DNA of 64,000 bases from Glaciecola sp. (lineage in GTDB: Bacteria > Pseudomonadota > Gammaproteobacteria > Enterobacterales > Alteromonadaceae), in the NCBI GenBank assembly GCA_018623155.1, contig JAAZVZ010000001.1, positions 124,001 through 188,000 of the forward strand, written 5' to 3'. The translations under genes and the position numbers were made by a program. The notes beneath the pieces are model-generated. The model was not told where the DNA came from. It saw only the letters and a program-made list of their open reading frames with translations, and made no database searches. Shown in pieces: positions 13,096 to 36,031 of the stretch. Numbering within the stretch: position 1 is the first letter of the stretch; each line of letters starts with the position of its first letter.

Positions 13096-13222
13096 ATAAC
13101 ACAACATGTGCCATACCCTTCTCATCTATATCTATTGATTTTGATATCTTTTACAAAAATTGATTTATGGCACTCGACTCATTCATAATGTTGAAAATAT
13201 GTTGAATGTATTGATGCTTACT

Positions 13223-16200
13223 ATGAAAAATTTACACACTTCACTCAGCTTTCTCCTTCTTATCAGTTTTTTTTCAAACGCTGCACCGGAAGCTTGGCAA
13301 AAGGCATCAGCAAGTAAAGGGCAAACCTCGTCAGCCTTATATGTATTAGATGAAGAATGGTTACTTGATACCGCAACCACCCAACATATTGTATATGTAC
13401 CTAATTTAAATGGTGAAATCATGGCATTTGCTGTGCGTGACAGCGGCGTGTTGCCTCCAGAATTGCAAGAAAAATTCCCAGATATCAAATCATACGTTGG
13501 TACCGCGCTGAATGACTCAGGACTCACCGGCCGTTTTGACTTTTCACCAAACAAATTTTCAGCGTTATTTCAAGATGGTACAGGCAGGACTCATCTAAGC
13601 ATCACACAACAACCTGATGCATTTTACAAAGTAAAAAAAGAATCGCCTTCCCACGACCACACTCAACCTGATTACAATTTACTCGCCCCAATTGAAATTC
13701 CAAATTTACACGTCTCTCATCCCAGTGATGTTCTCGATGTCACAAACACGGGTAGTCAAAGGGATTATCGTTTTCGCTTGGCCATGGCAACCACAGGTGA
13801 GTTTACCCAAACGGTTGGTGGAACCGTTGCAGGTGGTATGGCGGAGGTCACCTCTATCGTCAATCGGCTGAACCAAATTTTTCAGATCGAGACTGGCGTG
13901 CAATTTACCTTGGTGGCTAATAACGATGAGATTATTTATACCAATGGAAGCACAGACCCATATAGTAATAGTACGGGTGCTACCGAACTTAATAACAATC
14001 AAAGTAATCTCACCAGTGTCATTGGTACTGCTAACTATGACATTGGCCATGTCCTGACGACTTCAGGTGGTGGTGTCGCAGGTGGTGGTGTTATGTGTAT
14101 TGATAATTATAAAGCCTGGGGTATTTCTGGCAGTAATAACAATAATGAAACTGGCGAAAGCTTCTGGATCCGAGTCATCGCACACGAATTAGCGCATCAA
14201 CTTGATGCCAATCATATTTATAACGCAACAGAAAGCGTATGCACAACACGAAACGCAGATACGGCATACGAACCTGGTTCAGGCTCAACCATTATGAGTT
14301 ATAACGGGTTGTGTGGATCACAAAACTTACAGTCTGATACAGATGGGTATTTCCACCACCAGTCTTTGATTGAAATGCAAAGCAAACTCAATTCTATCCC
14401 TGGTTCTTGCGGGACAGTCACTACAACGACCAATACTCACCCAACCGCAAATGCCGGCAGTGATTATACGATCCCCGCCAACACATACTTTCAACTATCT
14501 GGTCAGGGAAGTGATGCTAACACCACTGACACGTTAAGTTTTGTATGGGAACAAGCGGATTTAGGGCAAACTACCAATAGCAGTAATGAAGCGACGACTG
14601 ATTTTGGTAGCGGTCCGATTTATCGGACTATTCTGCCAAGCTCATCGTCCATTCGAACTTTTCCAGCATTGGCTAATATCCAATCTGGCACGAACAGTAT
14701 TGGTGAAATCGTCCCGACCACAGCCCGTACATTAAATTTTGCATTTATTGTACGTGACGGTCAGGGCGGTATTACCTCAGATAATATGACGGTTACCACA
14801 GTCAGCAGTTCAGGTTTTTCATTAAATACCAGTTTTGATGGCGTAACTTTTACGGCCAACCCAATTACACTGGATTGGAATGTCGCAGGCTCTGATCAAG
14901 CTCCTGTCTCTTGTGCCAATGTGGATGTACAACTTTCCACCAACGGCGGTACAAGTTTTAATAGTATTGCAACTGACTTAACCAATGATGGTAATGCAAC
15001 CGTCAATCTACCCACAACCGGTAATCAGCAAGATAATCTCATGTTGCGTGTCAAATGCTCTGACAACATCTTTTTTGCTCAACATACCGGCACATTCAGT
15101 GCCAATATCAGTTTGTCCGATTATGTCGTTACTTCTCAGTCTGAATTGACCATTGCCGATGGTGAGTCTTCTTTAACTCTAGCTATCAGCGATTTTGTTG
15201 TTTCCAATATGGACACTCCAACATCCTTAACGGTTTTATCTGGTGACAACTACACAGTGAATGACACGACCATTACCCGGGTAGCCAACTTCAGTGGCAA
15301 TTTGAGTGTCGGGGTGCAACTTTCAGATGGCACCAATACGAGTGATGTTTACTTTGCAACGGTTACGGTGGAAGGTTCTGCCCCAGCTGACGAACCCGAT
15401 GCAGATGACCCTAACAATGATGATGACAGCGATTCAAATTCAGATGGGTTTGGCGGTTCAGGTAGCTCAACCATAAGCGACGCTGCAGACGTCATCTTAG
15501 TGAGCTCCGATCAAGCTGCGATATTTACAATAGGTGTACCGAACTTATCGGCTACTGACACGCTGAGCTCTGCAACGATTGATGCTTACTCTAATCTTAG
15601 CAATCAGTTGAATTGTAATACCTATGATGCGCAGAACGACCCCAATGATGCAGATTGTCCAGGTACTGTTTCGGTAAGTGGTCAAAATATTCTATTTACT
15701 CAAGTTCCGCAATTTTCTGGCCTCGTTCAAATCAGCTATACCACAGCACAAAGCAATGGCACGTTAGTGCTTGGTTTACTGGAAGAGACAGGTAGCGTAA
15801 GTGACTTTGTTTATCGTCGCAATGGCGATGGTGATACTGAAGGGCAAGATGCATTAGAAGATACGTCCATTGCACTTGAAATCGACGATTTTGATTTCAG
15901 TGGTATTTTTCCAACCAAAATATTTATAGCGGATGGCGCTAATTATACCTTCAATAATAATATTATTACCCCAGAAGCGAATTTTACTGGTCCGTTGAGC
16001 TTTGGCGTGCGCCTCAGTGATGGCAACAATGTCACGCCTCAATTTATGGCCAACGTGAATGTTGCAAACGTCAATGATGCACCGGTTGCGAACAACGATG
16101 CATTTTTGGTTACACAAAACTCATCAGACAATGCATTACAAGTGCTTGTAAATGACTTTGATATCGATCAAGACGATACAGTTGCCATTGTGAATGCTTC

Positions 16201-18052
16201 AGTTGATGAAGGGAGTGTGACATTTGATGCCAATCAGCTACTTTATACCCCGGACAACAGCTTTACCGGTACCGCAACCATCAACTACTTCATCTCTGAT
16301 GGTGAGTTAATTAGTAATGCGGCAACAGCAGTGATTACTGTTCAACAAACTATTAGTTCGGAGTCATTCTCAACCGATGAAGAAACAGCCATTACGTTTG
16401 CTCCATCCCAGTTTGTTGCCCCATTTGCCGTGACAAGCGTAACCATACTTTCTGGCGATGACTACTCTGTAGTAGACGGCGGCGCCGTGCCCAGTGACGA
16501 TTTTAGTGGCGAGTTATTAGTTCGTGTCCTACTGGAAGGTGCAAACGATGAAAGCACCGAGTACCTGGTTGCTGTCGACGTCACCAATGTTAATGATGCC
16601 CCCATTGCAGTAGATGATGCCTTCACAATTACTGAAGATACACTTAGTACCTTTGCTGTTTTAGATAACGATAGTGATCCAGACGCCAATGACACGCTGA
16701 TTATTACTGCGGCAACCACCTCTGGTAATGGTCAAGTGAATATTATTTCAGGTCAGCTAAGTTATTCTCCGGCAGCCAATTTTAGTGGGCAGGAGAGCAT
16801 CAATTATACCATCACTGATGGTTCAGAACTGACCAGCTCTGCACAAGTGGTAGTGACAGTAACCGCGCAAAATGATGCCCCAACAGTCGTAAACGATGTG
16901 GCCTATACGAATATAAACCGTGCGTTGTTGACGGTAGATGTTTTGGCCAATGATTCAGATGAAGAAAATGACCTTTTGGTTTTAACTGGGGTGACCCAAG
17001 CGACCAACGGTAATGCTTTCATTCGTGATAATCTAGTAGATTATACCCCCAACCCAGAATTCAGTGGCATTGAAACGGTCACCTACACCGTATCAGATGG
17101 CACTACGAGCAGTACCGGTACTTTGACAATTAATGTACTTAATACTCCCGTAGCCAGTACTTTAACTGTTAATGAAGAAGATTCATTTACCATTAGTACG
17201 TCTGATTTTGCTAATTTTGATTTTACCGTCAGTCAAGTTGTGTTGCGTGCAGGCGATAACTACACGCTCGTAGGAAATCGAATCATCCCTGATGCGAACT
17301 TCGTAGGTACATTATCAGTCAACGTAGAAGTGTCTGGTGGGGGTAATGTTGTTCTCACTCAACTTAATGTGACCATTCAAAATACCAATGATGCGCCAGT
17401 GGCAGTTCCAGACGCATTAGTATTGAATGAAGATCAACAAGTTTTCATCAACCCTACCGTTAACGACACCGATATTGATCCTGATGACACCATGACACTA
17501 TCGAGTGTTACAGGTAACGCTGGTGGTTCTATTACCTTTGAGGAAAATACGATCACTTATACACCAGCCCCTAATTATCATGGTGAGGAAGTGATCACTT
17601 ACACTATTGTGGACACATTGGGTTTATCTTCTACATCAACTATTACAATCACGATTAATCCTGTCGACGATGCACCCATTGCAGTAGCGGACACTAAACG
17701 CGCTAATATCAATCAGTCTGATATAAGCATTGATGTTCTATCTAATGACCGAGAGGTCGATAATGAAACGCTCACATTGGTCCGTGTGTCGACTGCAGGT
17801 GATGGTCAAGTTCGCATTCTGAACAATCAAATTATTTATACTCCTTTACGTGATTTTACCGGCGAAGAAGTTGTCACATATATTGTGTCAGATGGCATTA
17901 CAGAAGTAGAAGGTACTTTGACTATCAATGTGGTTGACTCGGTCGTCCTAGACAATAATGATCATGTTAACAGTCAAGCGGGCTCAGTCTCGTGGATATT
18001 ACTGCTGTTACTCGCCGGCCATATTTTATATCGTAGAGACCTACTAACGTAG
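13223..18052 (+). CDS. Giant secreted reprolysin-like metalloprotease with tandem cadherin-like repeats
   Basis: A 1609-residue paralogue of the 6846 protease. The frame opens at 13160, but MKNLHTSLSFLLLISFFSNA at 13223 is a clean signal peptide. The zinc site is HELAHQLDANH at 321-331: all three His and the Glu are kept, but the Gly usual after the second His is Asp. GSTIMSYNGLC is the Met-turn. A PKD-like region is followed by about seven cadherin/VCBS-like units with 'NDAPVA' linkers. The C-terminus has a hydrophobic helix (WILLLLLAGHIL) then YRR, like a sorting tail but without the Gly run. It diverges from the receptor and would share the Zur-like site. Secretion is probably by type II. 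Confidence 0.85.
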   Translation: MKNLHTSLSFLLLISFFSNAAPEAWQKASASKGQTSSALYVLDEEWLLDTATTQHIVYVPNLNGEIMAFAVRDSGVLPPELQEKFPDIKSYVGTALNDSGLTGRFDFSPNKFSALFQDGTGRTHLSITQQPDAFYKVKKESPSHDHTQPDYNLLAPIEIPNLHVSHPSDVLDVTNTGSQRDYRFRLAMATTGEFTQTVGGTVAGGMAEVTSIVNRLNQIFQIETGVQFTLVANNDEIIYTNGSTDPYSNSTGATELNNNQSNLTSVIGTANYDIGHVLTTSGGGVAGGGVMCIDNYKAWGISGSNNNNETGESFWIRVIAHELAHQLDANHIYNATESVCTTRNADTAYEPGSGSTIMSYNGLCGSQNLQSDTDGYFHHQSLIEMQSKLNSIPGSCGTVTTTTNTHPTANAGSDYTIPANTYFQLSGQGSDANTTDTLSFVWEQADLGQTTNSSNEATTDFGSGPIYRTILPSSSSIRTFPALANIQSGTNSIGEIVPTTARTLNFAFIVRDGQGGITSDNMTVTTVSSSGFSLNTSFDGVTFTANPITLDWNVAGSDQAPVSCANVDVQLSTNGGTSFNSIATDLTNDGNATVNLPTTGNQQDNLMLRVKCSDNIFFAQHTGTFSANISLSDYVVTSQSELTIADGESSLTLAISDFVVSNMDTPTSLTVLSGDNYTVNDTTITRVANFSGNLSVGVQLSDGTNTSDVYFATVTVEGSAPADEPDADDPNNDDDSDSNSDGFGGSGSSTISDAADVILVSSDQAAIFTIGVPNLSATDTLSSATIDAYSNLSNQLNCNTYDAQNDPNDADCPGTVSVSGQNILFTQVPQFSGLVQISYTTAQSNGTLVLGLLEETGSVSDFVYRRNGDGDTEGQDALEDTSIALEIDDFDFSGIFPTKIFIADGANYTFNNNIITPEANFTGPLSFGVRLSDGNNVTPQFMANVNVANVNDAPVANNDAFLVTQNSSDNALQVLVNDFDIDQDDTVAIVNASVDEGSVTFDANQLLYTPDNSFTGTATINYFISDGELISNAATAVITVQQTISSESFSTDEETAITFAPSQFVAPFAVTSVTILSGDDYSVVDGGAVPSDDFSGELLVRVLLEGANDESTEYLVAVDVTNVNDAPIAVDDAFTITEDTLSTFAVLDNDSDPDANDTLIITAATTSGNGQVNIISGQLSYSPAANFSGQESINYTITDGSELTSSAQVVVTVTAQNDAPTVVNDVAYTNINRALLTVDVLANDSDEENDLLVLTGVTQATNGNAFIRDNLVDYTPNPEFSGIETVTYTVSDGTTSSTGTLTINVLNTPVASTLTVNEEDSFTISTSDFANFDFTVSQVVLRAGDNYTLVGNRIIPDANFVGTLSVNVEVSGGGNVVLTQLNVTIQNTNDAPVAVPDALVLNEDQQVFINPTVNDTDIDPDDTMTLSSVTGNAGGSITFEENTITYTPAPNYHGEEVITYTIVDTLGLSSTSTITITINPVDDAPIAVADTKRANINQSDISIDVLSNDREVDNETLTLVRVSTAGDGQVRILNNQIIYTPLRDFTGEEVVTYIVSDGITEVEGTLTINVVDSVVLDNNDHVNSQAGSVSWILLLLLAGHILYRRDLLT

Positions 18053-21979: not shown

Positions 21980-22999
21980 CTACATGTCATTGATGAAAAT
22001 TGGTTCGCTTAATGAGTCTCTTACAACCACTCTAGTTTTAAACAAGTTTTCTATCTTATTACCAGTTGATTGTTTGTAGACCGTTTGTAAAATCCAAAAA
22101 GCTGCCATGGTCCCCATATCTGAGATAGGATTTTCTACAGAAGTTAATGATGGATAAGTGTAACGAGCAAAGATCAAGTCATCAAAACCTATTACTGAAA
22201 GCTGTTGTGGCATGTTAATTCCAGCTCGACGCGCGGCAAAAATCACACCTGTTGCCATATCATCGTTACCGCATACAATCGCAGTACAAGATTTATCTAA
22301 TGATTGTAAGTAATCAAAACCGGCCTCGCCTGAACTGTCATGGTAATCACCGCAGTACACATAATCAGCGTCAAATTCAATTCCTGCTTCTTCAAGGGCG
22401 CGTTGATGGCCACGTAAGCGTAGCCGTGCATCTTCTTTATACGACGGGCCACTAATATAACCTATCTGTTTATGACCTTTATCAATCGCTGACTTAGTCG
22501 CTAGATAACCACCCTGCTCATTATCGACGATAAAGCAACGTTCAGCGATCTGTGGGATTTGATGGTTGATCACCGCAAATTGTACATTCCGGTCAGATAA
22601 CTCAATAAGATAATCATCAGAAATAGAGTCGATACACAAAATGAGTGCATCACAACGACAGCTGATAAGAAACTCTATTGCTTCTTTTTCTTTCGCTTCG
22701 TCGCTATGACCAGCAGTGATAATAACGTGTTTGCCTGCGTCACGAAGTGTCGTTTCAATAGAAGCCAGCATATTGCTGAAGAAAGGACCATCAAGCACAG
22801 ATACTAATATTCCTACCCGATTCGAGGTTGCTGATGCCAAGGATTGCGCAATAGAGTTTGGGCGATAACCCAGTTCTTGCATCGCGATTTCGACGCGGTC
22901 CTTAGTGCGTTGGGCAACTTTGGATTTACCGTTTATTACACGCGAAACGGTTGCAAGGGACACTCCTGCTCGTTCTGCAACTTGATAAATATTCGCCAT
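21980..22999 (-). CDS. LacI-family repressor of the glucan locus
   Basis: A 339-residue LacI/GalR regulator. The N-terminal helix-turn-helix is IYQVAERAGVSLATVSRVING, with the hinge region RPNSIAQSLAS that inserts in the operator minor groove. A periplasmic-binding-like sensor domain follows (NRVGILVSVLDGPFFSNML, IVCGNDDMATGV and VIGFDDLIFARYT). It lies 22 bases downstream of the GH1 gene in the same direction, so it is probably co-transcribed and autoregulated through the operator at 24457. The likely effector is glucose or a laminarin oligosaccharide (inference from context). Confidence 0.92.
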   Translation of the reverse strand: MANIYQVAERAGVSLATVSRVINGKSKVAQRTKDRVEIAMQELGYRPNSIAQSLASATSNRVGILVSVLDGPFFSNMLASIETTLRDAGKHVIITAGHSDEAKEKEAIEFLISCRCDALILCIDSISDDYLIELSDRNVQFAVINHQIPQIAERCFIVDNEQGGYLATKSAIDKGHKQIGYISGPSYKEDARLRLRGHQRALEEAGIEFDADYVYCGDYHDSSGEAGFDYLQSLDKSCTAIVCGNDDMATGVIFAARRAGINMPQQLSVIGFDDLIFARYTYPSLTSVENPISDMGTMAAFWILQTVYKQSTGNKIENLFKTRVVVRDSLSEPIFINDM

Positions 23000-23021: not shown

Positions 23022-24356
23022 TTAACTTCGAGAATATAGCATATCCCGATAAGCGAGTGCGCTATCCTTTAGTATGCGGTCTTGCGTAACGTAATCAACA
23101 TACACAACGCCAAACCGTTTGCTGTATCCTAACGCCCATTCAAAATTATCCATCAAACTCCATGCAAAATACCCACGGATATCTACTCCTGCCTCAATCG
23201 CATCAGCAAGAGCATTGAGATGTGTTTGAAAATAATCTATTCGCTGAACATCTACGACCTTTCCTGATTCAAGCTGATCGGCCATTGCGGCACCATTTTC
23301 AGTAATGTAAATGGGGGGGAGAACGTACCGTTGATGTAGACCAATTAATAAATCCGTGAATGCATGAGGTGTGATTTCCCAGCCCATTTCTGTTTTGGGA
23401 TAATCATTGCGTTCGACCTCCTCAAACCATCCATCGTTCGTACTTCGGTAGACTGCACGCGTATAATAATTCAAACCTAAGAAATCTATCTTTCCACTAA
23501 TAATGTCCATGTCGCCGGTGACAACCTCTGGCTGGACATCACAGGGTAAATTCTCCAACAAGGCTGGGTAGGATCCGGTCAAGATAGGAGTAAGGTACCA
23601 ATGAAATAGATAATCACTGGCCATCTGTGCAGCCCTTTGATCCGCCGACGAAGCACTATCTGGATAACTTGGATGAATATTCAGTACGATCCCTGCAGGG
23701 ACTGATGGTGCATGCTGTCGTATTTTTTGCATTGCTAAGCCGTGCGCTAATAACAGAATATGGTTTGCTTGACGTCCCGCTTTTTGGTTTTTTTGTCCTG
23801 GTGCGTGCACACCGATTTCATAGCCAAGATACCCAGAACAAAAAGGTTCATTTAATGTGATGTAAGCATCTGCCTGGTCTCCAAGGCGGTTTACGACAAG
23901 GCCGACGTAATCTGCAAAAGCGTAGGCGGTATCTCGAGACAACCATCCGCCTTCATCTTCTAGATGTTGTGGTAAATCCCAGTGGTAAAGGGTAATGAAT
24001 GCTTGTTTGCCATGTTGCTTCAAGAAATTAAGAATATTTTCATAAAACTGTATACCGACTTCGTTTAACGTACCATCCTTCCCAACGACTCGGGGCCATG
24101 CGATGGAGAAACGATATGCATCAACCCCTAACTCAATAAGCATAGACAAGTCTTGTTCCCAAAGAGAATAATGATCACACGCTGTATCACCGTTGCTTTG
24201 ATCTAAAATAGTGTCTTGTTGCTCACAAAACGTATCCCAAATACAATCAAGACGCAGTTCTCTAGCGCCTTCAATTTGAAAGCTTGAAGTAGCAACGCCA
24301 AAAGTAAAATCGCCACCGAGGGCACGTATTGCGTCCGGGAGTACCAGTTTTTTCAT
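23022..24356 (-). CDS. bglA: GH1 beta-glucosidase
   Basis: A 444-residue family 1 glycoside hydrolase of normal length, without a signal peptide, so cytoplasmic. The acid/base is Glu170 in TLNEPF and the nucleophile is Glu353 in ITENGAA. The N-terminal FTFGVATSSFQIEGA signature and the WSLMDNFEW aglycone-site motif near the end are intact. It would hydrolyse cellobiose- or laminaribiose-type glucosides to glucose. It is divergent from the MFS transporter with a LacI-type operator between them, and the repressor gene follows it. Confidence 0.93.
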   Translation of the reverse strand: MKKLVLPDAIRALGGDFTFGVATSSFQIEGARELRLDCIWDTFCEQQDTILDQSNGDTACDHYSLWEQDLSMLIELGVDAYRFSIAWPRVVGKDGTLNEVGIQFYENILNFLKQHGKQAFITLYHWDLPQHLEDEGGWLSRDTAYAFADYVGLVVNRLGDQADAYITLNEPFCSGYLGYEIGVHAPGQKNQKAGRQANHILLLAHGLAMQKIRQHAPSVPAGIVLNIHPSYPDSASSADQRAAQMASDYLFHWYLTPILTGSYPALLENLPCDVQPEVVTGDMDIISGKIDFLGLNYYTRAVYRSTNDGWFEEVERNDYPKTEMGWEITPHAFTDLLIGLHQRYVLPPIYITENGAAMADQLESGKVVDVQRIDYFQTHLNALADAIEAGVDIRGYFAWSLMDNFEWALGYSKRFGVVYVDYVTQDRILKDSALAYRDMLYSRS

Positions 24357-24521: not shown

Positions 24522-25766
24522 ATGGCATCTTCAGCGCCAGGTGCGTCAGTTACAGCAAGTAACGGCAATCAAACCTACCGATTCGCATTAATTGCGTTAA
24601 CGTCACTGTTCTTCATGTGGGGGTTCATTACATGTCTAAATGACATATTAATCCCAGCGCTGAAAGGAGCATTTGAACTGAGCTTTACCCAAGCGATGCT
24701 CATTCAATTTTGTTTTTTCAGTGCTTATTTTTTAGTCTCTTTACCGGCAGGTAAACTCGTTGGTAAGATAGGTTATCAAAAAGGAATCGTTGTCGGTTTA
24801 TCTGTTGCGTGCTTGGGGTGTGTTTTATTTTACCCGGCAGCAGCATTAAGTGTGTATGGTATCTTCTTGTTTGCGCTATTTGTATTGGCGTCTGGGATCA
24901 CCATTTTACAGGTATCTGCAAACCCTTATGTCACCGTCTTAGGTCCTGCAGAAACCGCCTCGTCTCGTTTAACGTTAACCCAAGCATTTAACTCCTTCGG
25001 TACCACTATCGCGCCGTTTTTTGGTGCGTTTTTAATTTTTGGAGCGAGTGGTGAGCATACGGTATCAGATGCTGCGGCTGTCAAATTACCCTATCTCATT
25101 CTTGCTGCAGCATTACTTGTACTTGCGGTTATTTTTGCGGTATTAAAGCTTCCAACTATCGCTTCAACCGAGGGCAGTGATACGTCTAACGTTAGTGGTT
25201 CTGCGTGGCAATATCGGCATTTGGTCTTTGGTGCAATTTGTATCTTCTTATACGTGGGTGCGGAAGTGGCTATCGGCTCTTTCCTCGTCAATTACATGGC
25301 ACAACCTGAGATTGCTGGATTTGATGAAGCGACAGCAGCCAAATACATTGCCTACTATTGGGGTGGCGCCATGGTTGGACGCTTTATTGGTGCGGCAGTC
25401 ATGCAATATGTTGCAGCAGGCAAGGTACTTGCATTCAATGCGTGCATGGCTATTTTGTTAATTATTGTCTCTGTAAACAGTACCGGTATGTTGGCAGTTT
25501 GGGCGATTTTAGGTGTGGGTTTATTCAACTCAATTATGTTCCCAACGATCTTCTCATTAGCTCTTCAGGGGCTTGGTAAACACACAGCACAAGGTTCTGG
25601 CATCTTATGTCTTGCCATTGTTGGTGGCGCAATTGTGCCATTAATGCAGGGTTTCTTAGCAGATACATTTAGCCTACAAATTTCTTTCGTACTGCCAATG
25701 CTGTGCTACGGATTTATCGTGTATTACGGCTTCAAAGGTCATAAGCCAGTTGGTCAAGAGGGTTAA
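24522..25766 (+). CDS. MFS sugar transporter, FucP/GluP-like
   Basis: A 414-residue, 12-helix major facilitator of the fucose/glucose-galactose proton symporter group: [23 protein letters not shown] at the first helix (quoted as [12 protein letters not shown]), the [16 protein letters not shown] segment and [17 protein letters not shown] late in the protein. It would bring glucose or a disaccharide across the inner membrane. AGGAG precedes the ATG. The GH3 gene begins 4 bases after its stop, so the two are an operon under the operator at 24457. Confidence 0.9.
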
Positions 25767-25770
25767 ACAC

Positions 25771-28317
25771 ATGCAATTCAAACACTCATTAATTGCTATA
25801 GCTATGGCGGGTGTATTAAGCGGTTGTGGTACACCGCAGTCACAAAAAGAGAGTGCGACAGATATGAAAGATTCTTCTACAGGTGCCCATCCCATATGGC
25901 CAGCACTTGATATCAGTGTCAAAAAAGACCCTGAGGTTGAAGCGAAAGTGGAAGCGATTTTAGCGACAATGACTGTCGAGCAAAAACTCGCGCAAATGAT
26001 CCAACCAGAAATCCGAGATGTCACGGTTGAAGAAATGCGCCAATACGGATTTGGTTCATTTCTAAATGGTGGCGGGTCATATCCAAACGCAAACAAACAG
26101 GCTACAGTTCAAGAGTGGATTGATTTAGCTGAAGCTATGTATCAAGCTTCAGTTGACGATTCATTGGATGGTTCAACTATTCCAACCATGTGGGGTACTG
26201 ACGCAGTACATGGTCATAACAACGTAATAGGCGCAACCTTATTTCCACACAATATTGGTTTGGGCGCAGCAAACGACCCTGAACTCATTGAACGCATCGC
26301 CAAGGTCACGGCAACCGAAGTATTAGTAACCGGCATTGATTGGATCTTCGCTCCAACGGTTGCTACCGTGCGCAATGATCGCTGGGGTCGTACATACGAG
26401 GGTTACTCAGAACATCCAGATATTGTACGCAGCTACTCAGAAGCCATTGTTAAAGGGCTTCAAGGTGATGCTACTGACAACTTTATGGGTGAAGGAACCG
26501 TTATCAGCACTGTTAAGCACTTTGTTGGAGACGGTGGCACGACTGACGGTGTTGACCAAGGTAACACTGTTGTAGATGATGAAACATTATTTAATATTCA
26601 TTCTCAGGGTTATGTAGGTGGTTTGACTGCTGGCTCACAGTCCGTCATGGCCTCATTTAATCGCTGGAATGGTAAAAAAATTCACGGCGATCATTATCTA
26701 CTTACCGAAGTCCTCAAAGACCGCATGGGCTTTGACGGTTTTGTGGTAGGCGATTGGAATGGTCATGGGCAAGTGGCAGATTGTTCAAACGAAAGCTGCC
26801 CACAAGCGATCAATGCAGGCCTTGATATATTTATGGCGCCTACCCAGTCATGGAAAGCACTTTGGACAAACACGTTACAGCAAATTAATGATGGCATTAT
26901 TCCAATGTCTCGAGTCGATGACGCTGTACGTCGTATCTTACGTGTAAAAGTGCGCGCAGGGTTATTTGACAAACCCAGCCCAGCAAACCGTCCGTTATCA
27001 GGCAAAACAGAATTACTCGGCTCTCCTGAGCACAGAGCAGTCGCTCGTGAAGCCGTTCGTAAATCCCTAGTCATGCTTAAAAATAGCAACAACTTATTAC
27101 CGTTATCACCAAAACAACATATTTTGGTCGCCGGTGATGGTGCACATAATATTGGTAAACAATCCGGTGGCTGGACCATTACATGGCAAGGTACCAACAA
27201 CGAAAACAGTGATTTCCCAGGTGGTTCATCGATTTTTGATGGCATTGAACGCCAAGTTGACGCCGCTGGTGGTAGAGCTGTTTTAAGTCTGGATGGTAGT
27301 TTTGAAGAGAAACCAGACGTTGCTATCGTTGTTTTTGGTGAAGAACCTTATGCAGAAGGTGTTGGTGATATTGCCAATTTAGAATATTCACCTAATGACA
27401 AGAAAGATTTAGCCTTATTAAAGTCATTCAAAGAACAAGGGATCCCAACGATTGCATTATTTATTACAGGTCGCCCTTTATGGGTCAACAGCGAACTCAA
27501 CGCATCTGATGCATTCGTTGCAGTTTGGCTTCCAGGCTCAGAAGGTGAAGGGATTGCTGATGTTATTTTGCGTGACGCAGAAAATAATGTGCAGCACGAT
27601 TTTGTTGGTAAATTGTCCTTCTCTTGGCCCAAAGATCCCAACCAAATCGTTAATGTAGGAGATGCTGATTACGATCCGTTATTTCCATATGGCTTTGGTT
27701 TGACCTATTCTGATAAAGATACGCTCGGTGATACTCTTTCTGAAACGGTTGAAACACAGACGCAAGTAAATGATTTAGTCTTCTATAATCGTTCTACACA
27801 AGCGCCTTGGACCAAGACACTCGTGTCTGCGTTCAATACTGCACCTGTAACAGCGAGCACTCAGAGCATAGGTTCAGTAAGTTACCGAACACAAGACCGT
27901 GAAGTTCAAGAAGACGCATTTTCATTGACTACCACTGGTGGCAGTTATGCAGGTGTTCGTTTTGCAGGAAATGGAACGGCACAAGATTATTCACAAGCGT
28001 TCAGCACACCTAAATCTCTTAGTATGTTAGTTAATGTGGCACAAGCACCAAATGCGCCACTTATGCTAGGTATTAATTGCGGTTCCGTCAGTGACTGTGG
28101 GACCGTTGTTGATATTACGCCAAGCTTATCAAAGCTACAGCCTAATACATGGCAACGTATCATGGTACCAGCAGAATGCTGGAGTGATTTGGGTGTTGAC
28201 TATGGTAAATTGTCTGAAGGCTTAAGTATGATTACTGCAGGTAAGATGCAGGTTTCCTTCTCTGATATTGGTTTTGTTAATATCGGGGATGATGAGCAGA
28301 CTATTCGCTGTAAGTAA
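25771..28317 (+). CDS. GH3 beta-glucosidase / exo-glucanase lipoprotein
   Basis: An 848-residue family 3 glycoside hydrolase with a lipoprotein signal (lipobox LSGC, Cys near residue 20), so membrane-attached in the periplasm or at the surface. The GH3 N-domain has the nucleophile Asp328 in FVVGDWNGHG, with WGTDAVHGHNN and TVKHFVGDG as substrate-site motifs. The second GH3 domain is at about 410-650. A C-terminal beta-rich domain of about 170 residues resembles the ExoP galactose-binding-like module. The frame opens at 25750 inside the transporter gene, but the ATG at 25771 has GAGGG upstream and starts the lipoprotein signal. Confidence 0.9.
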   Translation: MQFKHSLIAIAMAGVLSGCGTPQSQKESATDMKDSSTGAHPIWPALDISVKKDPEVEAKVEAILATMTVEQKLAQMIQPEIRDVTVEEMRQYGFGSFLNGGGSYPNANKQATVQEWIDLAEAMYQASVDDSLDGSTIPTMWGTDAVHGHNNVIGATLFPHNIGLGAANDPELIERIAKVTATEVLVTGIDWIFAPTVATVRNDRWGRTYEGYSEHPDIVRSYSEAIVKGLQGDATDNFMGEGTVISTVKHFVGDGGTTDGVDQGNTVVDDETLFNIHSQGYVGGLTAGSQSVMASFNRWNGKKIHGDHYLLTEVLKDRMGFDGFVVGDWNGHGQVADCSNESCPQAINAGLDIFMAPTQSWKALWTNTLQQINDGIIPMSRVDDAVRRILRVKVRAGLFDKPSPANRPLSGKTELLGSPEHRAVAREAVRKSLVMLKNSNNLLPLSPKQHILVAGDGAHNIGKQSGGWTITWQGTNNENSDFPGGSSIFDGIERQVDAAGGRAVLSLDGSFEEKPDVAIVVFGEEPYAEGVGDIANLEYSPNDKKDLALLKSFKEQGIPTIALFITGRPLWVNSELNASDAFVAVWLPGSEGEGIADVILRDAENNVQHDFVGKLSFSWPKDPNQIVNVGDADYDPLFPYGFGLTYSDKDTLGDTLSETVETQTQVNDLVFYNRSTQAPWTKTLVSAFNTAPVTASTQSIGSVSYRTQDREVQEDAFSLTTTGGSYAGVRFAGNGTAQDYSQAFSTPKSLSMLVNVAQAPNAPLMLGINCGSVSDCGTVVDITPSLSKLQPNTWQRIMVPAECWSDLGVDYGKLSEGLSMITAGKMQVSFSDIGFVNIGDDEQTIRCK

Positions 28318-28404: not shown

Positions 28405-31400
28405 TTATAAGCTGCTAATACGTACACCTAGCGTATAGCGAGGGCCATATTGTGCAGCACTTAAGAACTGTTCTTTGAAACGACCATACACTTCCTCGGT
28501 CTCATTAAGAATATTAATACCATCTAGGAAGAATGTGACGTTGTCGTTCAAACGATAATTCACACTGAAATCCCATTGCATATATTCTTTAGCAAACTGA
28601 GGTGGAGCTTCAGAACTACCTTGTGACTGGCCTTGACCGATCAAGTACTCGTCACGCCAGGTGCCCGTCAACTTCACTGATAAACCATCTTTATCATAGA
28701 AGAATTGAGCATTTGCTGAGTCACTTAGACCAGGTAAAACAGGCTGAGTTGCTAATGTATATGGATCGTAATTTACATCACCATCAACAATCGTACCGTT
28801 AAGACCAAAGCCAAAGCCTGAATCACCTAATAGATGTTGTATAGCAAATTCAAGACCATTGGTGCTACGCTCTTCTACGTTCAATGGTGAGTTTACTGTC
28901 CATTCAACAAGTGGATCCGTTGCTGGGTCAGGTAGAACTCTTGCTCCATCGACACCTTGACCACTGGCAATAATGCTCGCATAAATATTATCATCTGTTG
29001 CATCTTGACCGTTAGCAATCAAGTCAGCACTTGCTGCATTCCAACGTGCGCCGTTAAAGATGTCATATACACCTGGAATGATGCGCGAAGACTGTGAATC
29101 ATCGATCCAGTTTTCTACATCTTTCCAGAATAAGCTTACTGCAGCATAGCTACCTTCATCATAATACCATTCAACAGATACATCTAAGTTTGTTGATTCA
29201 TAAGGTAATAATGAAGGATTACCTGAATTAATGAAACGAGAAGACTTACCTGGGAAACCAGTTATGCTCTCACCACCAAGTAATTGACCAGGTGCAGCAC
29301 GACTGATTGATTTACCCCAAGAAAGACGTGTTACCACATCATCGGTAACGTCCATACGCAAATCAAACATAGGTAACAATACATCATAGTCACCACTGAA
29401 GTTTTCAACAGTGAACGCGCCACCATTTGCAAATTCAGTACGCCACTCTGAGCCACCGTTCCAAACAATTCGATCAACAACTCGACGTTGGCCTGGGCTT
29501 TCTACTTCGGTTTCTTCGTAGCGTAAACCAGCATTCACATCAAGAATGTAATCGCCGAATTCAAATTCCCAGCTTGTATTTACATACAAACTAGTAGTTT
29601 CTTCTTCAACAAAAACAGGTTGTGGGGCTAAGTTACTTAGAAGAGGGAAGCCCTCTGTGCCATAGTAGTTAAGCGTACGAGATAATGCTTCATCGAAACT
29701 AAAGCTATATGTATAACCCGGAGAAATGCCAGCGCCACCAAAATCAAACTGATCTAGGAAACCAGTAAGATCAACTTGTTCAAACATGCCATCAGGGAAT
29801 ATTACACTGTTGAAGTTAAAACCAGCTGGTTGAGCCGTTTGTGATGAACCTGATAATGATTGAGTGGTATTTTGCGCACCAAACTCAACGGTCGTCAGAC
29901 CATAATCAGAATCAACTAACCACTCTACATCGACACTGGTTTGCGTCAATTCAGATTCACCTGGTGAACGACCGAAGATACCTAAGTTCAAACCAATATC
30001 GCTTGGTTCGACTTGATCAGTACCATTTCTCCAATTTACTGCGAATACAGGTATGTCAGCACCTGCACGGTTATCATAATACTTGCTCGTAAAATTATTT
30101 GAACCAAGAATCATTAAACCTGTACTGTTCAAACCAGAATCAAGAGTGTTATCCGTTTTCGTTTTTGATTTGTGGGTATCAAATTCTACTGTAATGTCAT
30201 CGTTTACGTTCCACTCGATGTTCAAACCAGTTGCTTCTGAATCAACTTCTGATGTGAAACGGTTTTGTGTGAACGATTGGTCATTACCCACGGATTCATA
30301 ATAAATAGCTGTACCATTTTGATCTAGCTCATAATTAGCTGCGCTGCCACCAAATGAGCCATTCCAGATACCCCAACCTAGTGTGTTAGAGCCTGTCACA
30401 GCATTTGAGATGGTGTGATCAACGGTCACAATAAAATTATCATGAAGCGCTAATTGGCCAGTGAACTGGGCATTTAATCGCTCTTGAGATGTATCTTGGA
30501 TACTGTAGTTCATATCCTGCGGTAAGAAGTGCGCCGCAGTTGGTACCGCTGCACCAGTCTCGGGATTGATCGCAGTAAAGATTGGTAGCGGATTTCCTTC
30601 TGAATCAGTTGCACGACCATCAATCGCACCTGTTAAACCTGATGGTAATGGTGCATCATCAATGAAACGTACAGCGTCCGTCGAAAAAGTACCATCTGTG
30701 TTCTGAGTGCGCACATCATAAGTAGCGTCTGTGAACGCTTTCCAACCTTGAATATTTGCAGCTTGACGCTGGAAATCACGGTTGTAGTAAGAGAAGTTTG
30801 CAGAGAAGCCAAAACGCTCATCTTCAAACGTATTACTGTAAATACCTGCTACTTCAGGAGTAACGTTTTCACCTACCTCGTTTGACGAATCGTGAATGCC
30901 TTTAAGCATTAACGAGAATTTCTCACCAGGTTGCTGAAAAGGTTTTGCAGTGACGATATTTACCGTTGCACCTAAACCACCAGTTGGTATGTTTGCTCGA
31001 GCTGTTTTGTAAAGCTCAAGAGCCGCAACACCTTCAGATGACAAATTTTCAAAGTTGAATGAACGGGTGAAACCCGTACCAGTCATTTGACGTCCGTTCA
31101 AGGTAACAAGGTTAAATTCTGGTCCGAAACCACGAACTGTGATCTGGCTACCTTCACCATTTGCACGGCTTACTGATACACCGGTAATTCGACCGAGTGA
31201 TTCTGCAAGGTTTGTGTCTGGGAATTTACCGAGTTCCTCTGCAGAGATACCATCAACGATACCATCAGAACCACGTTTCAGGTCTGCACTGCGGATCAAG
31301 CTACCCTTGATACCGCGTACAGAAATTATCTCAACTGCCTCATCCGCCTCTGCGGTCGCCTCTTGGGCGACAGCAGGAAGGGATAGAGAGGCACCCATCA

Positions 31401-31452
31401 ATAGAGCGATAGATGCTGCGAGTTTCGTTTTTGTAAAAGTCATATTTTTCAT
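28405..31452 (-). CDS. TonB-dependent receptor of the glucan locus
   Basis: A 1015-residue outer-membrane receptor of the large alteromonad/xanthomonad TIGR01782-like class. The signal peptide ends at PAVAQ (about residue 30). A TonB-box-like stretch EIISVRG is followed by a plug with FPDTNLAESLGRITGVSVSR and ITVRGFGPEFNLVTLNGR, then a barrel ending ...GPRYTLGVRISSL. Adjacent enzymes suggest beta-1,3-glucan oligosaccharides as ligand. It follows the GH16 gene by 25 bases in the same direction, so it should be driven by the operator-controlled promoter at 36053-36080. GAGAG lies upstream of the ATG. Confidence 0.92.
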   Translation of the reverse strand: MKNMTFTKTKLAASIALLMGASLSLPAVAQEATAEADEAVEIISVRGIKGSLIRSADLKRGSDGIVDGISAEELGKFPDTNLAESLGRITGVSVSRANGEGSQITVRGFGPEFNLVTLNGRQMTGTGFTRSFNFENLSSEGVAALELYKTARANIPTGGLGATVNIVTAKPFQQPGEKFSLMLKGIHDSSNEVGENVTPEVAGIYSNTFEDERFGFSANFSYYNRDFQRQAANIQGWKAFTDATYDVRTQNTDGTFSTDAVRFIDDAPLPSGLTGAIDGRATDSEGNPLPIFTAINPETGAAVPTAAHFLPQDMNYSIQDTSQERLNAQFTGQLALHDNFIVTVDHTISNAVTGSNTLGWGIWNGSFGGSAANYELDQNGTAIYYESVGNDQSFTQNRFTSEVDSEATGLNIEWNVNDDITVEFDTHKSKTKTDNTLDSGLNSTGLMILGSNNFTSKYYDNRAGADIPVFAVNWRNGTDQVEPSDIGLNLGIFGRSPGESELTQTSVDVEWLVDSDYGLTTVEFGAQNTTQSLSGSSQTAQPAGFNFNSVIFPDGMFEQVDLTGFLDQFDFGGAGISPGYTYSFSFDEALSRTLNYYGTEGFPLLSNLAPQPVFVEEETTSLYVNTSWEFEFGDYILDVNAGLRYEETEVESPGQRRVVDRIVWNGGSEWRTEFANGGAFTVENFSGDYDVLLPMFDLRMDVTDDVVTRLSWGKSISRAAPGQLLGGESITGFPGKSSRFINSGNPSLLPYESTNLDVSVEWYYDEGSYAAVSLFWKDVENWIDDSQSSRIIPGVYDIFNGARWNAASADLIANGQDATDDNIYASIIASGQGVDGARVLPDPATDPLVEWTVNSPLNVEERSTNGLEFAIQHLLGDSGFGFGLNGTIVDGDVNYDPYTLATQPVLPGLSDSANAQFFYDKDGLSVKLTGTWRDEYLIGQGQSQGSSEAPPQFAKEYMQWDFSVNYRLNDNVTFFLDGINILNETEEVYGRFKEQFLSAAQYGPRYTLGVRISSL

Positions 31453-31477: not shown

Positions 31478-34400
31478 TTATTCAGCAGCAGTCACTTGGA
31501 TGTTCTTAATGATGACCGACTGGTCTTGTTCATTTAAGTACATCAAGAATGAACTGTATGTGTTAGCTGCATCTTGCGCACCAAAGGTAATCGTGTACTG
31601 AGTCATACCTTCACCCGTTACAGTCACCGCATCTGTGTTGAATGAAGGTTCAACATCTGGGTACGGTAAACGTTCGAAACGGAAACGTACATTAGTGTCA
31701 GTGCCACCAGCAGGTAATGCTGCATCAAATGTAATCGTACCACCATTTGGGAAACTCATTGGATATAAGCTTGAATTATCATTTGAGAAACCAGCCCATG
31801 CTTCCGCACCTGTTGGCCACGCGTAGGTCGCATTTGATTTCGTTGCACCACCAAATGGTACCATCATCGCTTGTGTATCAAACGTTGTCACCTGAATATC
31901 ACGGATCATGACCGTCGCATCACGCTCTACCAAATACAGTAGGAACGAGCTGAACTCTGTCACACCTGTTTGAGCAGGGATGGCAACACGATACTCAGTT
32001 TCGGCAGTACCTGTAACAGTCACTGATTCGGTGTTGAACGCAGTGCTGTTATCTGGATGTGGTAAGTTTTCGAAGCGGAAGAATACATTAGTATCCACCG
32101 CATCACCCACTAGCGCACCCGTAAAGGTAATGAAACCACCGCGTGATAAATCCATTGGATACAACGCTGTATTTAAGTTTGCAAAGCCTGCCCATGATTC
32201 CGCTGCAGCAGGGAAGGTATAGTTATCACCGTCTTTCGCACTGTTGCCGAATACACCAGACATATCAGCTGCCGTTGAATTCGCTGTTACAGTGATGTCA
32301 GTTACCGTTACACCTTGGTCACGCTCAACAATATACATCAAGAATGATTCGTATGTATTCTCTGCATCTTGTGCAGGGATAGTCACACTATACTCAGTTG
32401 CCGTGGAGCCTGAGACAACGACATTCGCCAAATCAAACGCTGGGTCAGTATTCGGGAATGGACGACGCTCAAAACGGAAGCGTAAAGTGGTATCCGCAAC
32501 ACCTTCAGCTACAGATGCCGTGAACGTCACTGTACCGCCTGCAGGGAAAGTAAATGGATAAACTTCTGCATTGTCGTTGGCGAAACCTGCCCAACTTTCA
32601 GCGCCAGTAGGGAATGTATACACACCATCTGCTAATGTTGCGCCACCAAATGAGCCTGTCATCTGTACACCAGATGGACCATTAGCAGTGACCACGACAT
32701 CTTTAATGATGACGTTTGCATCCATATTCTCGAAGTACATCAAGAATGAACTGAACGTATTCTCACCTTGTTCGCCAATGGTGAGCGTATAAGTTGCTTC
32801 ATCAGTGCCTGTAACTGTCGCATATTCTGTGAAGAATGATGGCTCAGTCGCTGTTGCATCATCAGCATTAAATGGTAGACGTTCGAACTTGAAGCGAACA
32901 TTCACATCTGCCGCACCCGCTGGTAATGCACCCGTAAAGGTAATTGTACCACCATATGGGAAGCTGAATGGATATAGGTCATCATTGTTATTCGCTACCC
33001 CACCCCAAGTTTCAGAGCCTGATGGCCATGTATAGGTTGAAGTTGCCGCATCAAACGTTACGCCACCAAACAATCCTGTGAAGTCAACGCCTGTTGGTGC
33101 TGGAGTTTCACCGCCACCATTGTTGTCGTCTGAACCGCCGTTATTATCATCAGAGCTGTCTGAACCACCGTTGTTGTCGTCAGAGCTGTCTGAACCACCA
33201 TTGCTGCTACCACCGCTGGTGTCGGCTGTGAAGAACATGTTATCCACGCGGTATACTGCGTCAGCACCGGTTCCCCATGCTGGGAATATCATGATGACGT
33301 CAATCGCTGATGGATCTAATGTGCTATCTACCAAGTCGCTGACATCAAAGCTAAATGTCTGCCAGTTCTCAGATGGGTTAACACCTTCATTTGACGTATT
33401 TAAGTTAACTTCAATGAACTCGCCTTGGTTCGCATTAGACTCAAGTTTCAACATCCATGCTTCATTGCCTGCCGCTGGCGCGTTGACTACTTTTAAGTCA
33501 AAACGGAATACACCAGAAGACAACAAGCTTGATGCATCGATTGAAACACCGGTACCACCGTCAGAGGTACGCGAGTTCAAACCAAGTACTGTGCCTGAAT
33601 TACCATTGTTTACAGCAAACTCAACAACCGAACCGCCTGCATCTGCATCCGCTACAAAGCTTGGTGTAGAGCCACCACAACAATCCCATAGTGCCCAGTT
33701 TTCGTTCACTGCACCAGCGTCAATTAATGTCGCAAGTGGTGGAATTGCCGCACCAGAACCTGGCACGTGGAATTTAAGGTCAGCTACGCGGAAGACTGCG
33801 TCAGCACCCGTTCCCCATGCTGGGAAAATCATAATGACATCAATACCACTTGGATCCAAAGAACTGTTGCTCGTCAAATCGCTGATATCAAAAGTGAAGG
33901 TCTGCCAGTTTTCAGAAGGGTTTTCACCTTCGTTAGAAGTATTTAGGTTTACTTCAACAAATTCGCCTTGGTTTGCATTAGATTCAATCTTCAGCATCCA
34001 ACCTTCATTACCTGCAGCCGGTGCGTTTTGAACTTTCAAATCAAAAGATAATACGCCATTGCTTGCAATTGGAGTAACATCAATTGGGCTATCATTACCA
34101 CCATCAGAACTGCGTGTAATGAAGCCTAGTACTGTTCCTGAGTTGCCGTTTGCAACATTAAACTCAGCTACTTGGCCTTTCACATCATCGGTTACAAGAC
34201 CTGGTGTTGAACCACCACAGCAATCCCATAATGCCCAATCTGCGTTTCCTGAAACAGGGAATTCAGGGAACGTTTGACCAGAGGTATCTTGTTCGATTGC
34301 AACATTGTCCATACGGAATACCGCACCATCACCAGTCATCCAGGCTGGGAATACCATAATGACGTCGAGTAATGTTAAATCTACACCGTTATCTGCAATG

Positions 34401-35938
34401 TCTTGTAGTGGTACACGATAGTTTGCCCACTCACCTACAACAGGTGCTGGACCATAGTTCACTAAATCTGTTTCCCATGCGCCACCAGCGGCCTCATCTG
34501 CTTCAATCTTAAATTTCCAGACAGATGCTGGATCAGCAGGTGCACTGGTTACCTTTAAGTCAAAGGTCACATAACCGCCATCTATCATGCCGAGTGCATT
34601 ATGAGGTGTTGCACGCGCTGGAGATGATGGATCCGGATCCAAGAATAATGAGCGAGTGATGAAGCCAAACACAGTACCATCGTTGCCATTTGCAACTTGG
34701 AACTCGTATACGTTACCACGGTCAGCATCGTCAGCAACTAATGCTGGAGTAGAACCGCCACAGCAATCCCACGCAACCCAGTTAGTGTCTACAACATCAT
34801 CGAAAATGGTGATTGGGTCAGGCGCACCAGGGTTTAATGTCGGGCTTGGTGCTCTACCTTGGACTAAGAAACCACCATCTTCGGCATCTACATCATAACC
34901 TGGCGCAACGGTTTCACATCCACGACCTGTTTCTGGATCAGCACCACATTCATACACACGAACATAATCGATTTCATAGGTCTGACCTGCTCCAGCGAAC
35001 ATGGTTGCATCCACGCCACCTTCGTTCACTGAACTAGGCCAGCTGCCGCCAACTGCTAAGTTAAGTATCATGTAAAAGTTTTGGTCAAAAGGTGCAGAAG
35101 AGTAATCTGTTTCTAAGTTACCTGTAACAATGTCATATAACTCAGCATACCATCCGCGATGAGATAAACCCAAAATAGTACCATCAGAGGAGGTACGTAA
35201 CTGAGATTGGCGTTGAACTGCGTATAATTCGTTGTTGAAATACCAACGCATTTCGCCTTCTTGCCACTCAAGAGCATAGGTATTAAACGAGTCACCTGGA
35301 TTTGTCTCAGGGGTATGAGCTGCACCTGAGAAGTCACTACCTGGGCCAGCACCATAATGGATAGTACCATAAATATTTGTTTCAGGAGTGCCATCTGCTC
35401 GAGCAGCACCTAAGTTTACTGCTTCAACAATGTCGATTTCGCCAGATTTTGGCCAGTTACCATAGACAGAATCAGTTGGCATCATCCAAAATGCAGGCCA
35501 AGTTCCTTGACCTTTTGGTAACTTAGCACGCATTTCAATACGTCCGTATTTAAAGTCACCTTTATAACGAGTAGTCATGCGTGCAGAGGTATAATCGTTA
35601 TCTTGATCTCCCGCTGCGCCGTCATTTAATTTTGCAACTATTTTTAAAGTACCTTCAGATACGAACGAGTTTTCGTCTGAATCTGTGTAGCATTGTAACT
35701 CTTGGTTACCGCCACCATCACAGTTGACTTCATGCGTCCATTTGCGCGAATCGATAGCTGAGCCATCAAATTCATCTGACCAGACTAGTTGCCAGTCATC
35801 AACAGGTTGATTAGGAGTTACCACCGACAAATTTGTCGAGGTAGCAGAACTGCTATCGCTGCCGCCGCCACAACCGGCGATGGTTGCCGCTGCGACTAAT
35901 ATAGCAATTCTTGATGTATTCAAGATTGATTTATTCAT
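31478..35938 (-). CDS. Multimodular GH16 laminarinase-like lipoprotein
   Basis: A 1486-residue surface or periplasmic lipoprotein (lipobox TIAGC). The GH16 domain covers about 40-335, with GEIDIVE at 166-172: nucleophile Glu167, Asp169, acid/base Glu172. Three consecutive 180-residue modules follow, each starting near a W-D-C-C-G-G-S-T-P motif (about 383, 563 and 743); copies 2 and 3 are nearly identical over long stretches. A Gly/Ser/Asp/Asn linker (about 910-945) leads to four 130-residue beta-rich modules with 'FGG-(A/V)T ... WP-x-G-x-E-x-W-x-G-x-x-N'. The frame opens at 35998, but that would place an operator inside the gene; the lipoprotein start at 35938 is preferred. Likely an endo-beta-1,3-glucanase. 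Confidence 0.88.
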   Translation of the reverse strand: MNKSILNTSRIAILVAAATIAGCGGGSDSSSATSTNLSVVTPNQPVDDWQLVWSDEFDGSAIDSRKWTHEVNCDGGGNQELQCYTDSDENSFVSEGTLKIVAKLNDGAAGDQDNDYTSARMTTRYKGDFKYGRIEMRAKLPKGQGTWPAFWMMPTDSVYGNWPKSGEIDIVEAVNLGAARADGTPETNIYGTIHYGAGPGSDFSGAAHTPETNPGDSFNTYALEWQEGEMRWYFNNELYAVQRQSQLRTSSDGTILGLSHRGWYAELYDIVTGNLETDYSSAPFDQNFYMILNLAVGGSWPSSVNEGGVDATMFAGAGQTYEIDYVRVYECGADPETGRGCETVAPGYDVDAEDGGFLVQGRAPSPTLNPGAPDPITIFDDVVDTNWVAWDCCGGSTPALVADDADRGNVYEFQVANGNDGTVFGFITRSLFLDPDPSSPARATPHNALGMIDGGYVTFDLKVTSAPADPASVWKFKIEADEAAGGAWETDLVNYGPAPVVGEWANYRVPLQDIADNGVDLTLLDVIMVFPAWMTGDGAVFRMDNVAIEQDTSGQTFPEFPVSGNADWALWDCCGGSTPGLVTDDVKGQVAEFNVANGNSGTVLGFITRSSDGGNDSPIDVTPIASNGVLSFDLKVQNAPAAGNEGWMLKIESNANQGEFVEVNLNTSNEGENPSENWQTFTFDISDLTSNSSLDPSGIDVIMIFPAWGTGADAVFRVADLKFHVPGSGAAIPPLATLIDAGAVNENWALWDCCGGSTPSFVADADAGGSVVEFAVNNGNSGTVLGLNSRTSDGGTGVSIDASSLLSSGVFRFDLKVVNAPAAGNEAWMLKLESNANQGEFIEVNLNTSNEGVNPSENWQTFSFDVSDLVDSTLDPSAIDVIMIFPAWGTGADAVYRVDNMFFTADTSGGSSNGGSDSSDDNNGGSDSSDDNNGGSDDNNGGGETPAPTGVDFTGLFGGVTFDAATSTYTWPSGSETWGGVANNNDDLYPFSFPYGGTITFTGALPAGAADVNVRFKFERLPFNADDATATEPSFFTEYATVTGTDEATYTLTIGEQGENTFSSFLMYFENMDANVIIKDVVVTANGPSGVQMTGSFGGATLADGVYTFPTGAESWAGFANDNAEVYPFTFPAGGTVTFTASVAEGVADTTLRFRFERRPFPNTDPAFDLANVVVSGSTATEYSVTIPAQDAENTYESFLMYIVERDQGVTVTDITVTANSTAADMSGVFGNSAKDGDNYTFPAAAESWAGFANLNTALYPMDLSRGGFITFTGALVGDAVDTNVFFRFENLPHPDNSTAFNTESVTVTGTAETEYRVAIPAQTGVTEFSSFLLYLVERDATVMIRDIQVTTFDTQAMMVPFGGATKSNATYAWPTGAEAWAGFSNDNSSLYPMSFPNGGTITFDAALPAGGTDTNVRFRFERLPYPDVEPSFNTDAVTVTGEGMTQYTITFGAQDAANTYSSFLMYLNEQDQSVIIKNIQVTAAE
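33110..33210. repeat. Low-complexity linker repeat in the GH16 gene
   Basis: A tandem repeat codes for GGSDSSDDNN units, the flexible linker between the CCGG modules and the fourfold C-terminal modules. Confidence 0.75.
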
Positions 35939-35983
35939 TGTTATGCCCATTACAAACAGTGGTTGTTTTTGTGTGCTTAGAAT

Positions 35984-35997
35984 TGTAAGCGCTTTCA
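35984..35997. promoter_or_regulatory. LacI-type operator O2 upstream of GH16
   Basis: TGTAAGCGCTTTCA is the reverse complement of the site at 24457 (TGAAAGCGCTTACA), that is, an identical operator. It lies about 46 bases upstream of the chosen GH16 start and downstream of the promoter, where a bound repressor could block elongation. Confidence 0.85.
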
Positions 35998-36031
35998 CCT
36001 ATTTTCCAAAAAATAAGCGACTTTACAAAAA

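Follow-up and report, generated by a model that had tools for sequence, protein, structure and literature searches.

A window of 64,000 nucleotides from Glaciecola sp. (assembly GCA_018623155.1, contig JAAZVZ010000001.1, positions 124,001 to 188,000) contains a gene on the minus strand (31478-35998) that encodes a GH16 enzyme of 1506 amino acids, counted from the first start in the open-frame list. Behind the catalytic domain, this enzyme carries three consecutive modules of about 175 residues, every one of which bears the sequence WDCCGGSTP. These WDCC modules are real, well conserved and widespread, and in kind they are a carbohydrate-binding module (CBM) of known fold class. They make up an offshoot of an established CBM superfamily, one for which the searched libraries have no separate name or entry. 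We consider it quite probable that the repeats are tandem laminarin-binding CBMs, beta-sandwiches of the CBM30/CBM11/ExoP_C type, carried by a surface-anchored endo-beta-1,3-glucanase whose products would be released beside a receptor.

Tandem modules and their predicted fold

As delimited by sequence comparison, the modules occupy residues 394-573 (module 1, 34280..34819), 575-747 (module 2, 33758..34276) and 753-929 (module 3, 33212..33742), and like all other features of the enzyme they lie on the minus strand. WDCCGG begins at residues 410, 591 and 771, and the spacing of 181 and then 180 codons therefore amounts to 543 and 540 bases. A preliminary description of this DNA had rightly recognized repeated W-D-C-C-G-G modules after the GH16 domain, although the exact 540-base period that it reported holds for the second step and not for the first. 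In BLASTP comparisons, modules 2 and 3 are 71.9% identical (E about 1e-81), with 45.4% for modules 1 and 2 (E 4e-38) and 40.5% for modules 1 and 3 (E 7e-39). True pairs of modules scored at least 117 bits vs. a top score of 27.7 bits for shuffled versions of module 2 (n = 200). The same description had modules 2 and 3 nearly identical over tens of residues, which is true of patches, the longest identical stretches being 17, 12 and 10 residues, but not of the modules overall.

An AlphaFold model of module 3, computed from 23 aligned modules (mb2b68e066cc1), is a beta-sandwich with a pLDDT of 88.3 and a pTM of 0.86. CBM30 took the first six places among PDB chains in a Foldseek search (2c24_A at E 1.9e-7), and after it came GH50 agarase domains, SGBP-B, CBM8, CBM4, CBM16 and the laminarin-binding CBM of entry 8qx6 (E 6.3e-4). 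Alignment of the predicted model with VIA-align gave Z scores of 16.1 for CBM30, 14.9 for CBM8, 13.9 for CBM11, 13.8 for an exo-agarase domain and 13.7 for CBM29, and lower values for ExoP_C (12.9), 8qx6 (11.0) and the CBM4 structure 1gui (10.7); gaps of less than 1 in Z were treated as ties. When viral proteins were searched by structure, the matches were unspecific domains from tail and esterase proteins, and these were set aside.

Sequence searches were made with single modules and with profiles. Module 2 reached 16.4 bits against CBM30 (PF21582), under the cut-off of 27, and modules 1 and 3 had no CBM30 entry in the Pfam output. For Exop_C (PF18559, cut-off 26.1 bits), neither the three modules nor the whole window protein produced a row at E ≤10, and at the same threshold the modules produced none for CBM_4_9 (PF02018), though that fold is shared (1gui, above). 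Searches of NCBIfam and PHROGs with the modules yielded nothing useful. A profile of 23 module rows matched CBM30 in the PDB at E 7e-4, and a second one, built from 33 diverse relatives, did so at E 7.3e-7; 34 representatives had been chosen for the latter, and the truncated L024 was dropped (L numbers denote the selected loci, which are stretches of at most 20 kb around strong matches, together with six earlier loci). Exop_C was matched by 18 of the 33 diverse relatives at E ≤0.1. One relative with paired cysteines (L051:1498-1992) scored 29.2 bits against this family, above its cut-off, and the whole GH16 protein of L006, which belongs to the window's genus, scored 26.1 bits, exactly at it. 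Because the 33-relative profile matches CBM30 and the L051 relative passes the Exop_C cut-off, we conclude that the WDCC modules share a superfamily with CBM30 and Exop_C, yet are members of neither as Pfam defines them; the Exop_C domains of GH3 enzymes form a clade separate from the WDCC modules (support 100/99).

These results refine the earlier proposal of a new CBM, for which a profile search and structure prediction had been suggested as checks. The former gave no above-cut-off CBM family match for the window modules themselves, and the latter gave a confident beta-sandwich nearest to CBM30. The CBM type is borne out by the fold (CBM30, Z 16.1), the profile match (E 7e-7), Exop_C, the linkage to GH16 and the laminarin-type locus described below. 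The word “new” stands insofar as no Pfam or NCBIfam cut-off was passed, but it has to be narrowed to a branch of the CBM30/Exop_C superfamily, as opposed to an unrelated family. Our searches of the open-access literature found no description of the modules. They may already carry a CAZy number; CBM family numbers reach CBM113 by 2026 (PMC13235733).

From its N- to its C-terminus, the enzyme comprises a lipoprotein-type signal, the GH16 domain, the three WDCC modules, a linker and four shorter repeats of another family. The whole protein scores 63 bits against PF00722 (Glyco_hydro_16, E 3.2e-17), for which the Pfam cut-off is 22. The catalytic domain (34934..35818, borders approximate; Pfam match at residues 124-299) contains GEIDIVE, and EIDIVE, from residue 187, fits the catalytic signature of GH16, ExDxxE. 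Met21 is the likely start codon. A likely lipoprotein signal extends from there to Cys43 (35870..35938), in the sequence TIAGC, which we take to be a lipobox, and the enzyme is presumably located at the surface via a lipid anchor.

Paired cysteines and the history of the duplication

The window protein has 11 cysteines: one in the lipobox, two pairs within the GH16 part or shortly behind it, and a CC pair in each of the three modules, Cys412-Cys413 (34760..34765), Cys593-Cys594 (34217..34222) and Cys773-Cys774 (33677..33682). A wider survey kept modules with E <1e-5 whose match spanned 120 or more positions of the model, which gave 233 sequences and, once duplicates and substrings were removed, 146 unique ones from 52 loci. 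CC is present in 130 of these, every one with exactly two cysteines, and the other 16 comprise ten without cysteine, five with two separated cysteines (D-C...P-C type) and one cut by N, the sole row with a single cysteine. Clustering at 90% identity leaves 131 clusters, with CC in 115. Invariant throughout the 130 CC modules are Trp15, Trp18, Asp19, Cys20, Cys21, Lys98 and Glu100 (module 3 numbering), and no His and no additional Cys is found among the columns that reach 93% conservation in them.

Because CC occurs in 130 of 146 modules, with no other cysteine in those 130, the pair likely forms a vicinal disulfide, which would probably stiffen the strictly conserved W-x-x-W-D-C-C loop. The preliminary description had ventured “perhaps with vicinal disulfides”; the pair as sole cysteines lends this weight, and the bond itself is putative. 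Vicinal disulfides are rare, and the pair might instead bind a metal or act as a redox switch. We regard this as quite improbable, given the export signal on the protein, the absence of cysteines other than CC from the modules, and the lack of any accompanying conserved His or additional Cys in the ≥93% columns. Such disulfides are known to touch sugar, as in arabinofuranosidase 1wd4, and a role as a switch is reported for them as well, which would favor the redox alternative (both in PMC12102755). The CC loop would accordingly make a clean test case for a vicinal disulfide serving sugar binding in a CBM.

Modules 2 and 3 had been ascribed to a recent duplication, which is not supported by trees of the five genomes in which both are intact, namely the window and L004-L007 (L008, where module 3 is broken by N, was excluded). 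Over the module outside one patch, all module 2s split from all module 3s with support of 100/100. The first half of the module alone gives the same split at 100/100, and the last third alone at just 61/92. Within a patch of 32 codons (33926..34021 in module 2 and 33383..33478 in module 3), the tree reverses and groups by lineage rather than position. The two window modules then form a pair (99/96), the closely related L005 and L006 contribute a group of four copies (85/89), and the pairs of L007 and L004 stand at 73/79 and 68/52, respectively. Over approximately these columns (29 codons), modules 2 and 3 within one genome share 73-87% DNA identity; by comparison, the window shares 64-70% with the corresponding module in the four other genomes, and L004 and L007 share 73%. 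Taken over its full length, the module is about as similar between paralogues (68-73%) as between the window and its orthologues (69-73%). The patch-tree test is weakened because the borders of the patch were chosen post hoc, from the identity data. The simplest reading of these alignments is that modules 2 and 3 stem from an old duplication that would predate the split of these genomes, with later local gene conversion probably homogenizing the patch. Module 1 falls apart from module 2 and groups with modules of three loci from other genera (L037, L064 and L083; 95/92), and the split between modules 1 and 2 is therefore older still.

Distribution, gene neighborhood and proposed role

The module profile matches 189 of 295 sampled genomes of the window's family, in 39 of 52 genera (E ≤0.001), and 19 of 398 genomes in a sample of the phylum. 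Within the family, module and GH16 occur together in 188 genomes, GH16 alone in 40, neither in 66, and the module alone in one (G073, module match at E 7e-17). Fisher's test on these counts gave p 2e-36, a value to be read with the relatedness of the genomes and the frequent presence of GH16 in the same protein. Among the selected loci, 25 of 27 module-bearing frames contain GH16 in the same frame, as does the window gene, and the modules are accordingly non-catalytic domains attached to a carbohydrate-active enzyme, which is the general definition of a CBM. Of the remaining two frames, one encodes a Shewanella protein and the other is the rear half of the L008 gene, which is interrupted by N.

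A TonB-dependent receptor gene comes next in the same direction, at most 112 nt away or overlapping, in 24 of the 25 GH16-module frames, the sole frame without a following receptor being the N-broken L008. In the window, the receptor gene (28405..31452, minus strand; Pfam TonB_dep_Rec_b-barrel and Plug) follows the GH16 stop after 25 nt and runs in the same direction. The genes carry three modules in 14 of 23 loci and four in the other 9; the 25 frames include L005 and L008 beyond these 23, and L104, without a module gene, is not counted. In 20 of the 23, namely the loci that do not belong to the window's genus group (L009, L086-L103, L105), the frame ends right after the last module. Tandem arrangement in three or four copies would suit structural spacers, that is, CBM-like folds that have lost sugar binding and hold the catalytic domain off the membrane, and beta-sandwich modules can indeed be structural. 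Spacers are nonetheless decidedly unlikely, in view of the strong conservation of the Trp/Lys/Glu/Cys set in 130 modules and the occurrence of modules next to domains of further CBM families (CBM4_9, CBM56) as well as in a protein of lipoprotein type that lacks a recognized catalytic domain.

That protein, from Shewanella hanedai (L009 13920-16097, plus strand), combines Ig-like domains, one CC and one CC-less module, and an extra C-terminal domain. It lies directly downstream of a TonB receptor in the same locus and looks like a surface glycan-binding protein, as a prediction. Elsewhere, the modules stand alongside Exop_C and CBM56 as well. Two GH16 frames of 2095 and 2571 residues (L070 2950-9234, minus strand; L071 1991-9703, plus strand) hold six WDCC-type modules apiece, together with several CBM4_9 domains. 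A 3715-residue frame (L072 6735-17879, minus strand) has leucine-rich and thrombospondin-type repeats, a single CC module and no GH16 match, and a frame of 2150 residues (L081 2410-8859, plus strand) links GH16 and a CC module to CBM56 and a di-haem oxidoreductase domain, as either a true fusion or a frame artefact.

Beyond the receptor gene, the window encodes a GH3 beta-glucosidase-type enzyme with a C-terminal Exop_C domain (25750..28317, plus strand), an MFS transporter (24522..25766, plus strand), a GH1 beta-glucosidase-type enzyme (23022..24356, minus strand) and a LacI-type regulator (21980..22999, minus strand). The succession LacI, GH1, MFS, GH3, TonB-dependent receptor, GH16, gnd and pfkB is the gene order of PUL1 of Opacimonas immobilis (PMC12844025), and gnd and pfkB of the window were named from their likeness to that published order. 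In the available part of the same source, GH1, GH3 and GH16 of PUL1 are upregulated 1.75- to 2.12-fold at 24 h on laminarin, the GH16 is described simply as an endo-beta-1,3-glucanase, and growth on laminarin is documented for at least one bacterium related to the window's organism (PMC12844025).

The modules might alternatively bind another glycan or the cell's own surface, for instance an algal wall polysaccharide, and so anchor the enzyme on algae. CBMs at times target a polysaccharide that differs from the substrate of their enzyme, and the specificities of the modules may differ because module 1 is unlike modules 2 and 3. This alternative is nevertheless unlikely when set against the linkage to GH16 and to a beta-glucan locus of GH1, GH3, MFS and TonB-dependent receptor genes, and against the binding of beta-glucans by close folds (CBM30 and, by their entry titles, CBM11 and 8qx6).

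Several points weigh against tandem laminarin-binding CBMs. The three window modules fall below every Pfam and NCBIfam cut-off, a PDB sequence search with them gave no match, and hhalign of the modules against the Exop_C group of the window's GH3 gives a low score (25.7% probability, E 7e-4). For six of the 189 module genomes, the match itself is only weak (E 8e-4 to 7e-6), the genome counts are not independent, the genomes being related, and the loci were a manual choice among strong hits. Moreover, not all beta-sandwich modules of this fold bind sugar. According to the laminarin-binding reading, which we prefer, the lipid anchor would keep the enzyme at the cell surface, and several CBMs would grip chains of laminarin (a beta-1,3-glucan) by avidity near the GH16 site. 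GH16 would cut the laminarin, and the products would pass to the TonB-dependent receptor whose gene comes next.

A bolder version, which we consider doubtful, would make the modules a new CBM family with the disulfide beside two invariant Trp in a sugar-stacking platform, the array replacing SusD/SGBP in Alteromonadales without SusD and delivering laminarin to the receptor. The putative SusD/SGBP stand-in would be compatible with the gene pair and with the Shewanella protein that lacks a recognized catalytic domain. Laminarin represents more than 10% of the CO2 fixed yearly (PMC11345257). If the modules bind it, a widespread unnamed CBM branch, found in 189 of 295 family genomes, becomes annotatable, and the conserved pair of GH16-CBM and TonB-receptor genes would provide a testable model of laminarin capture at the surface.

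The remainder of the enzyme consists of a Gly/Ser/Asp/Asn linker (33083..33211), in whose region a 30-base tandem repeat lies at 33128-33199, and four C-terminal repeats of about 129 residues (31481-33082; from first to fourth, 32678..33082, 32276..32662, 31877..32263 and 31481..31867), for which there is no Pfam family above cut-off. A model of the fourth (m9b674bfe1858, pLDDT 85.6) is a CBM-like beta-sandwich, nearest to a GH51 domain, CBM29, CBM22 and CBM36. Repeats of this type are present in L006, L007 and L016-L018 too, and no relation between them and the WDCC modules was detectable (hhalign 1%). Elsewhere in the window, and read by eye, a TonB-receptor-like protein (10613-13054, minus strand) has many His/Asp/Glu runs, with a 9-base tandem repeat at 12156-12214, and near it is encoded a permease-like protein with a His-rich loop (5520-6833, plus strand); the pair suggests possible uptake of a metal, perhaps zinc. 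Two related large secreted proteins (6846-9980 and 13160-18052, both plus strand) appear by eye to be metalloprotease-like, with cadherin-like repeats and hydrophobic C-terminal tails.

Comparison with known systems

CBM30 of Clostridium thermocellum (PDB 2c24, 1wmx), a family that binds beta-glucans, shares its fold with the predicted structure across the whole module (157 residues, 2.8 A, Z 16.1), but identity in the structural alignments is only 14-15% and the window modules score under the Pfam cut-off. Similarly, CBM8, CBM11 and CBM29 (PDB 7t7y, 6r3m and 1gwl) resemble the modules in fold, with Z of 14.9, 13.9 and 13.7, and differ in sequence, with 14-20% identity and no appearance in the PDB profile results at E ≤10. 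The laminarin-binding CBM “X584” (PDB 8qx6, ligand by entry title) has a like fold over 142 residues (Z 11.0), yet shows 18% identity and no match by either profile in the PDB at E ≤10. Exop_C (PF18559), the C-terminal domain of the GH3 enzyme ExoP (PDB 3f95), is alike in fold (Z 12.9) and is present on the window's own GH3, whereas the window modules have no above-cut-off score for it and the GH3 domains keep to their separate clade.

Two further systems invite comparison in architecture. SGBP-B surface glycan-binding proteins (PDB 7k44) are similar in structure (Foldseek E 3e-5) and in concept, a glycan binder at the surface next to a TonB-type transporter, but their sequence match is sub-threshold (SGBP_B_XBD, 0.06) and the WDCC modules are fused to GH16. 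Uk-C, the glucan-binding C-terminal domain of a Vibrio GH17, is likewise laminarin-binding, outside the CBM families of its day and C-terminal on a beta-1,3-glucanase, a likeness to the proposed role of the WDCC modules drawn by description only (PMC9026390). A GH17-like frame at L073 (5365-7299, plus strand; Pfam below cut-off), the C-terminal part of which weakly matches the WDCC profile (i-E 1.4e-4, 619 frames), is reminiscent of this Vibrio enzyme with its glucan-binding C-terminal domain (PMC9026390).

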